From an uncultured Alphaproteobacteria bacterium (GTDB taxonomy: Bacteria > Pseudomonadota > Alphaproteobacteria > HIMB59 > GCA-002718135), in assembly GCA_902595855.1 (NCBI GenBank), contig CACJRY010000005.1:1-64000 (forward strand): a stretch of DNA of 64,000 nt. The letters are read 5' to 3'. The notes under the pieces were generated by a model. The model was not told where the DNA came from. It did not search any database and worked only from the letters and a program-made list of their open reading frames with translations. This document shows positions 26,658-29,386 of this stretch, piece by piece. Each line of letters begins with the position of its first letter. Positions within the stretch are counted from its first letter, which is position 1. The position numbers were made by a program, and so were the translations under genes.

Positions 26658-27131
26658 TTAACAGTCTTTATTGAGTTGATTTATTGCGTTTGTAAATCCT
26701 TTTAATGAATAAATATCATTGGTTATTGTTCCTCTTGTTGACTCACCTGTAAGTGTTAGTTCTAGACCTTTTTTCATTGCATAAATTACTTTACTATCAT
26801 CATTAGTCCATGCAGTCTCAGATGAGTCTTCTGTAGAGTAAAAATCATAATTCGCATTATCAATTTTAACATTGATTCTTTTATTGAGATTATAATTATA
26901 GCCTGCCTCTATCTGAATAATATTTTCATCACTTCCAATAATTTTATATACAAGTATATAATTGTCACCGCGTTTTTTTTCTTTTGGCAAATCTGATTTA
27001 TAGGGATATGCACCAATGTAACACCAGTCTTCATCTTTAACAAATGACCACTTTCCCTTTTCTAGAGATAATGATTGTTTTGCAATAGATATTCCAAAAA
27101 TTGCAATAAATGTAATTAGTATTTTTTTCAT
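26658..27131 (-). CDS. Invasion-associated locus B (IalB)-like secreted protein
   Basis: Signal peptide, [12 protein letters not shown] and [36 protein letters not shown] pattern. Confidence 0.6.
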
Positions 27132-27202
27132 GTATTAATGTATAAATTTGTTATTATACCATTCTAGAAAAGTATCAAAGTTTAAGATGAATAAAAATTA
27201 AT

Positions 27203-27730
27203 ATGGAAAACGATAAGTTAATTGATCTTGCGGCAAAGATTGCAAATACACGAGACGAAAAGGCATTTTCGGAAATATTTGATTTTTTAGCACCAAAAGT
27301 AAATTCCTATTATTTAAAAAATAATTTAAGTTTTGAGCAATCTGAAGAATTAACCCAAGAAGTGCTAAGCGCTGTTTGGCTAAAGGCTGATCTTTTTAAT
27401 CCTGATAAATCTAAATTTATTACATGGGCTTTTACTATAGCGAGAAACAAAAAAATTGATCTTTATAGAAAGCAAAATAATAAAAAGATTGAAGATCAAG
27501 ATGTTAGAGACTTTCTCTATCAACATAATAACATTAGTGATTATGAAATTGAGTCTTCAATCAATAAAATTAAGCAAGAATTGGATGAAAATCAGCAAAA
27601 ACTGATAAAAATGAGCTTTTTTGAGCAAAAAAGTCATAAAAAAATAGCTGAAGAGCTTGAAATCCCTCTTGGTACAGTTAAATCTAGAATAAGATCTACA
27701 TTAAACAAAATGCAAAAATTTTTAACATGA
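27203..27730 (+). CDS. ECF sigma factor (ECF11/RpoE-like)
   Basis: Sigma70 region 2 ELTQEVLSAVWLKADLFNPDKSKFITWAFTIARNKKIDLYR and region 4; overlaps ChrR-like anti-sigma gene. Confidence 0.9.
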   Translation: MENDKLIDLAAKIANTRDEKAFSEIFDFLAPKVNSYYLKNNLSFEQSEELTQEVLSAVWLKADLFNPDKSKFITWAFTIARNKKIDLYRKQNNKKIEDQDVRDFLYQHNNISDYEIESSINKIKQELDENQQKLIKMSFFEQKSHKKIAEELEIPLGTVKSRIRSTLNKMQKFLT

Positions 27731-28362
27731 ACACTACTGCTCAAAAAAACGAACTTATATTTGGCTATTCTAGTGGGAACTTGGGCGAAGCAAAATCACT
27801 TTTTGTTTCAATGTACTTATATCTCAATAGTTTTGCTGCAAAAAAAGCTTCTATATTTGACAACATCCTTGCTGATAATTTCGCAAACCTAGATGAGATA
27901 GCTCCGAGAAAACTGAATTACAAAGATTGCATTGAATCAACCTCTAAAAAAAATCAAAAAGATGAAATTTCTGGCAACTTAAACCCTATTACCAACTTGG
28001 TTGGAAACTTAGAAAATCTAAAATGGAAATCAATTTATAAAGGTTTTAAAGAATACGTACTTCCAGTAAATGATGGAGATACTGTTAAGTTGATAAAAAT
28101 GGATCCCGGAACCTCAGTGCCACTGCATTCACATAATGGCAGAGAATACATTCTTGTTCTGGATGGTTCTTTTTGTGATGAATATGGCGAATACAAAAAA
28201 GGCGATATGCAAATAAATGATCAACAAATTAAACACCACCCAACTGCGTGTGATAATGATGGATGTGTTTGCCTATCAATAACAGAAAATGATGTTGTTT
28301 TCTTCGGTAAGTTTGCCTCAATATTAAATTTATTTACTTTTATAAAATCATTTTTTAAGTAA
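27727..28362 (+). CDS. ChrR-family anti-sigma factor with C-terminal cupin, zinc ligands of anti-sigma domain absent
   Basis: FGYSSGNLGEAKSLFVSMYLYL aligns with ChrR anti-sigma domain; VPLHSHNGREYILVLDGSF cupin. Confidence 0.85.
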   Translation: MNTTAQKNELIFGYSSGNLGEAKSLFVSMYLYLNSFAAKKASIFDNILADNFANLDEIAPRKLNYKDCIESTSKKNQKDEISGNLNPITNLVGNLENLKWKSIYKGFKEYVLPVNDGDTVKLIKMDPGTSVPLHSHNGREYILVLDGSFCDEYGEYKKGDMQINDQQIKHHPTACDNDGCVCLSITENDVVFFGKFASILNLFTFIKSFFK

Positions 28363-28390: not shown

Positions 28391-29386
28391 ATGAGCAAAA
28401 TTACGACTCTATTTTATCGTGGAAATTTGATCGAAAGTAAACATGAAATCAAAGGTTTAATAGGATCAATAAATGGAGAAAAAATATTTACTACACATAA
28501 TGAAGATGAATATATTTTTCCAAGATCTTCTATAAAAATTTTTCAAGCCATACCATTTGCTATTTCAGATGCATTTAATGTATTTAATTTAAACCAAAAA
28601 CAAATTGCACTTTCATGCTCATCACATTGTGGAGAGCATTTTCATATAAAAGAATTACAAAAATGGATTATTAAAACTAATTTAAAATCCAAAAATTTGA
28701 AATGTGGTATTCACAACCCATTAGACACTCACGCAACTGAAAAACTTTTTCTTTCAGGGAAAAAACCTTACCAACTTTACAATAATTGTGCAGGTAAGCA
28801 TTTAGCCATGTTAACAGCATGCAAAATAAATAGATATTCAATTGATGATTACTTAGATTTTAATCATCCTCACCAAAAAAAAATAAGGTCTGTTTTTGCT
28901 AAATTTACTGAAGAAAATATTTTAAAAACTAATTATGGTGTAGATGGCTGTAGTGCACCTCAGTACGCATTTACAATCAAACAATTGAGTGTGGCATTAT
29001 CAAATCTTTACAAAAGTTATAATTCTAAATTTGAATATTCTCATATTGTTGGAATAATGATTGATGCTATATTGAAAAATCCATTGTTCATTGGTGGTAA
29101 TAAAAATCTTGATAGTAACTTGATTAGAATCTCTAATGGTGAAATATTTTGTAAGGGTGGAGCTGAGGGAGTATTTTTATTTATACATTTAAAAAAAGGT
29201 ATTTTTGGAATTCTAAAGGTAATAGATGGAAATGAGAGAGTTTTACCTTCAGTAGTTTACAATTTGTTTAAAAAACTTAAATTATTAAAAAATAAGCAAA
29301 TTGAAGAGTTAAAATATTGGAATAATTTTATTTTAAAAAATCATGCTAATATTAAAATTGGGCATATAAAAACAGTTATAGAATAA
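28391..29386 (+). CDS. L-asparaginase II family (PF06089-type)
   Basis: RSSIKIFQAIPF, SCSSHCGEHFHI, NCAGKHLAMLTACK, GVDGCSAPQYA. Confidence 0.9.
   Translation: MSKITTLFYRGNLIESKHEIKGLIGSINGEKIFTTHNEDEYIFPRSSIKIFQAIPFAISDAFNVFNLNQKQIALSCSSHCGEHFHIKELQKWIIKTNLKSKNLKCGIHNPLDTHATEKLFLSGKKPYQLYNNCAGKHLAMLTACKINRYSIDDYLDFNHPHQKKIRSVFAKFTEENILKTNYGVDGCSAPQYAFTIKQLSVALSNLYKSYNSKFEYSHIVGIMIDAILKNPLFIGGNKNLDSNLIRISNGEIFCKGGAEGVFLFIHLKKGIFGILKVIDGNERVLPSVVYNLFKKLKLLKNKQIEELKYWNNFILKNHANIKIGHIKTVIE

Follow-up and report, generated by a model that had tools for sequence, protein, structure and literature searches.

A ChrR-type anti-sigma factor without anti-sigma zinc ligands but with an intact cupin metal site in a marine alphaproteobacterial order

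In R. sphaeroides ChrR, the zinc of the anti-sigma domain is held by H6, H31, C35 and C38 (PMC6852236), and zinc binding through these residues is required for sigma inhibition. Can a ChrR homologue that has lost all four ligands still act as an anti-sigma factor? A gene pair in the window raises this question, where the window is the whole stretch of 64,000 nucleotides analysed.

27203..27730, + strand: ECF sigma factor gene, 175 aa, paired with the ChrR homologue (Pfam Sigma70_r2 2.2e-12, Sigma70_r4 1.6e-11)
27727..28362, + strand: ChrR-type anti-sigma factor gene, 211 aa, with an N-terminal anti-sigma domain and a C-terminal cupin (TIGR02451, PF12973, 2z2s_B)

A ChrR homologue paired with a sigma factor

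Identity of the 211-aa protein was examined with profiles, pairwise alignment and structure prediction. It matches TIGR02451 at 7.3e-35 with 120.7 bits, just below the curated cut-off of 124.5 bits, and PF12973 (Cupin_7) at 9.5e-19. With phmmer, residues 9-191 align in register with R. sphaeroides ChrR (2z2s_B, E 1.6e-19). When the anti-sigma domain alone was compared by hhalign, 14 same-genus domains matched 62 zinc-type domains in register (E 4e-7, probability 93%). Ten column-shuffled controls of this comparison gave no match, so the homology of this domain is above chance, and the protein has the N-terminal class I anti-sigma domain of the ChrR family. An AlphaFold2 model from 48 sequences is only moderate in confidence (mean pLDDT 70), its top PDB matches being the ChrR crystal structures 2q1z and 2z2s. 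Helices are placed at residues 3-16 and 21-52, and the helix 4 region, where contact with sigma region 2 is expected, has pLDDT below 50. The earlier note on this DNA had called the protein a ChrR-type anti-sigma factor, and this identification holds with the same ORF coordinates.

The solved structure that best matches the sigma factor is R. sphaeroides SigE (2q1z_A, 8e-31), and chrR adjoins a SigE-type ECF sigma gene. The sigma stop and the chrR start overlap as ATGA. Such translational overlap is seen in most same-genus loci, and sigma-chrR linkage is found in both families of the order, which is presumably the HIMB59 / AEGEAN-169 clade. An argG-ialB pair running divergently from sigma-chrR is likewise a gene order common to both families, and this synteny shows that the locus was inherited vertically across the order. 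Those relatives that sequence comparison could name are marine single-cell genomes, Pelagibacteraceae bacterium AG-337-I02 among them.

On the other side of chrR, an L-asparaginase II-like gene lies 3′ (28391-29386); in the genus it is present on contigs that extend far enough. In the other family, no asparaginase-like gene was found next to chrR, and DUF3429-like and short pterin-dehydratase-like genes follow directly, as judged by eye. The same genome also encodes a further cupin, a stand-alone protein of roughly 127 aa resembling the cupin of ChrR (G000:C1:59228-59428).

Loss of the zinc site in the order and beyond

27727..27924, + strand: anti-sigma domain, residues 1-66, without zinc ligands (hhalign E 4e-7; dN/dS 0.08; helices 3-16 and 21-52)
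27814..27837, + strand: codons 30-37, with Tyr30, Asn34 and Ala37 at His31, Cys35 and Cys38 of R. sphaeroides ChrR (from the alignments)

Alignment places Y30, N34 and A37 at H31, C35 and C38, and the H6 equivalent is absent; the first His of the protein is residue 134. The ZAS motif H/C-x24-25-H-x3-C-x2-C is missing from the window protein and from every aligned orthologue, and judged by its sequence the protein is not a ZAS protein. With no Hx3Cx2C, it falls among the non-zinc class I domains by the criterion of a published domain survey (PMC7406223). Loss of all anti-sigma zinc ligands, as claimed in the earlier note, is thus confirmed by the phmmer alignment and the lack of an N-terminal His.

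The same note had named a mis-called start as something that would undo this claim. The in-frame codons 5′ of the ATG read SWYS*I*NKIYIKQNAKIFN, with neither a His nor a start codon before the stop, so the ORF start misses no N-terminal zinc motif. The start is correct, and an N-terminal extension hiding the motif is ruled out.

How far the loss extends was examined in the order. Zinc ligands are absent and cupin ligands are kept in all 64 aligned orthologues, 45 from the same genus and 19 from the second family, and the check for clade-wide loss proposed in the earlier note therefore gives an order-wide answer. An assembly or lineage artefact is ruled out by this alignment together with the synteny.

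Two alternatives bear on what remains of the domain. First, it could be a degenerate remnant, with the sigma factor no longer inhibited and the cupin serving another role. Every zinc ligand needed in R. sphaeroides is indeed gone, and the rate of evolution of the domain is somewhat above that of the cupin (dN/dS about 0.08 versus 0.03; the linker has 0.26-0.28 and the C-terminal tail, at 0.016, the smallest value among the four segments). However, a dN/dS of about 0.08 is strong purifying selection and shows that the domain is functional. Ten residues (N8, L10, G17, L19, K23, S24, Y30, L31, N34 and A37), including all three at the former ligand positions, are invariant in the 48-row alignment A2, and two further points against decay are the overlap of the gene with sigma at the majority of loci in the genus and its linkage across two families. 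We consider a remnant very unlikely.

Second, the domain could bind metal via other residues: Asp, Glu or Asn, Cys68, or ligands contributed jointly with a second protein. Cys68 does not vary within the genus; among all Cys and His in residues 1-95 of 71 orthologues, it alone is invariant. But no other Cys or His is conserved there, Cys68 lies in a low-confidence linker whose adjoining segment has pLDDT below 50, and the HIMB59-type protein in the alignment lacks it. Metal binding of this kind is highly improbable, and an alternative set of Cys/His ligands is ruled out by Cys68 standing alone. From the purifying selection and the solitary Cys68, the domain has neither decayed nor been fitted with another Cys/His metal site.

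A class-wide search found TIGR02451 matches in 207 of 388 genomes. Ninety loci (87 distinct), drawn from high, middle and low scores, were read, and one mis-aligned row (L150) was read by eye for the ligand counts. Outside the order, HxxxCxxC is kept in 62 of the 87, partly kept in 3 and absent in 22, and the cupin ligands are intact in all 22 zinc-less homologues. When weighted by score strata, the zinc-less share is roughly a quarter to 30%. This agrees with the published domain survey: of the class I anti-sigma domains that are soluble, approximately 28% have no zinc motif there, and zinc and non-zinc types are intermixed inside groups (PMC7406223).

Zinc-less homologues sit on several separate branches of a maximum-likelihood tree. 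On this tree, a quick search whose long branches make deeper placements unsure, parsimony counts 12 changes in the zinc-less label, and well-supported branches force no fewer than 4 of them. A one-off loss is ruled out by our class-wide sample and the tree, and the singularity implied by the title of the earlier note does not survive, as 22 of 87 other alphaproteobacterial ChrR homologues have the same loss. In this order the loss is shared by the whole clade, and it represents a common variant that has recurred, not an exception. Anti-sigma domains of the non-zinc kind are already known; what we did not find described is a zinc-free ChrR-cupin clade: our literature search returned no paper on one, and the consulted part of the published survey does not single out ChrR-cupin proteins (PMC7406223).

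A sigma gene was not detectable within 1.2 kb in 8 of 21 zinc-less homologues (L115, L118, L127, L128, L130, L134, L136 and L147), as against 4 of 61 zinc-type ones. The eight are possibly orphans or have a different partner.

The intact cupin and a proposed model for inhibition without zinc

27997..28296, + strand: cupin domain, residues 91-190 (PF12973; dN/dS 0.03; model matches 2q1z and 2z2s)
28126..28146, + strand: cupin metal motif HSHNGRE (His134, His136, Glu140), equal to H141/H143/E147 and kept in every aligned homologue with sequence there
28234..28236, + strand: His170, fourth cupin ligand, equivalent to H177 (from the alignments)
28297..28359, + strand: amphipathic conserved C-terminal tail, residues 191-211, ending LNLFTFIKSFFK (dN/dS 0.016; helix 196-210 predicted with low confidence)

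Zinc in the R. sphaeroides ChrR cupin is bound by H141, H143, E147 and H177 (PMC6852236). The window protein ends in a cupin_7 domain with the same His, His, Glu and His, since H134, H136, E140 and H170 align to these residues, and the cupin metal motif described in the earlier note is accordingly present. Cys180 and Cys182 of a CxC are also kept in the genus (alignment A2).

Within the genus, no part of the protein is more strongly conserved than the tail ending LNLFTFIKSFFK, and most class homologues (tails of L066-L155) finish in a comparable stretch, short and amphipathic (GRLLNPF, for example). The ChrR tail could touch the membrane; for R. sphaeroides, ChrR is reported to occur in the membrane fraction, as data not shown (PMC3818230).

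What may replace the zinc is suggested by the residues at its former site. Among 21 zinc-less homologues outside the order, the Cys35 position is Ser, Asp or Asn in 17, followed by Pro in 12 and then by Asp or Glu in 12, a pattern that, read from sequence, would be typical of a helix N-cap. The first family of the order has mostly Asn-Ser from this position (alignment A2). Zinc-free E. coli RseA has Asn-Pro-Glu and reaches the ChrR fold via protein packing (PMC6852236). Given these putative capping residues and the RseA fold, the simplest reading is that capping plus packing replaces zinc.

We propose that the zinc-free anti-sigma domain would still bind and silence the sigma factor, its helix bundle being held by hydrophobic packing and by capping from Asn34 (at the Cys35 position), as in RseA. 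A signal, most likely sunlight-derived singlet oxygen or organic peroxide, would then act at the intact cupin metal site, and the sigma factor would be released. The R. sphaeroides response to singlet oxygen depends on the ChrR cupin (PMC6852236, PMC6432622). As a whole, an ECF11-like sigma factor with a cytoplasmic, zinc-independent anti-sigma partner that senses through its cupin metal site is probably the best explanation, despite the zinc requirement of R. sphaeroides ChrR. The zinc-independent fold suggested in the earlier note is thus supported, with clade-wide loss, purifying selection and no alternative Cys/His behind it. The implied singularity falls, and altered control of the adjacent sigma factor, the other option in that note, is a possibility at most.

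The same genomes carry a cluster of photolyase, FAD-dependent oxidoreductase, DUF1365 and cyclopropane-fatty-acid-synthase-like genes, which we take to correspond gene by gene to R. sphaeroides SigE response genes. That response includes the photolyase gene phrA and furan-fatty-acid genes (PMC6852236). By analogy, the cluster would hold the kinds of genes under SigE control, and a regulon link here may be drawn as a circumstantial one. The cluster is conserved in both families, with trhO nearby (L260, L261, L237, L262). A search for a promoter motif common to the sigma operon and the cluster found none. The region upstream of sigma (27130-27202 and equivalents) takes three unlike, internally conserved forms within the order, each carrying a TTAAGA-like element.

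A third alternative keeps the zinc-independent anti-sigma factor and replaces its signal by one other than singlet oxygen or organic peroxide. It would fit a promoter that has no recognisable likeness to the R. sphaeroides SigE type and varies from subclade to subclade, as well as the circumstantial regulon link. On the other hand, the cupin ligand set is full, the CxC of Cys180 and Cys182 is kept in the genus, and the lineage is sunlit and proteorhodopsin-bearing (PMC10308909), with the photolyase / CFA-like cluster. We hold another signal to be unlikely.

Extending the zinc-independent reading to ChrR at large, the zinc finger may be a replaceable structural clip, swapped several times for a helix cap, with the never-lost cupin as the sole chemical sensor. 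We offer this tentatively, giving it slightly less than even weight. The role of the ChrR zinc-thiolate in singlet-oxygen sensing is debated (PMC6432622) or described as unknown (PMC6852236). If the extension is true, zinc-free ChrRs would answer singlet oxygen without a zinc-thiolate, which would settle the role of the finger. Natural ChrRs with a cupin but no zinc site are ready-made test cases for which metal site senses, and those described here come from a marine lineage of sunlit waters that is abundant and has cultured relatives (HIMB59 / AEGEAN-169 clade, PMC10308909).

Comparison with known systems

The other zinc-less alphaproteobacterial ChrR homologues (e.g. L106, L107, L114 and L126) likewise lack HxxxCxxC with cupin ligands intact, and a sigma gene adjoins in 13 of 21. 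Many of them retain His31 with both Cys lost, whereas the window protein has Tyr there.

Among non-zinc class I proteins, E. coli RseA and M. tuberculosis RskA share the anti-sigma fold without zinc, and the Asn-Pro-Glu of RseA resembles the residues replacing Cys35 in zinc-less ChrR homologues. Unlike the window protein, however, both are membrane-anchored and have no cupin, and in RseA control is exerted from the periplasm through proteolysis.

The best match in both sequence and structure is R. sphaeroides ChrR, which works with SigE/RpoE of ECF11. The two proteins share the two-domain layout, the HHEH cupin ligands and the adjoining ECF sigma gene at an identity of about 30%, and they differ in the H6/H31/C35/C38 zinc site, which is absent from the window protein.
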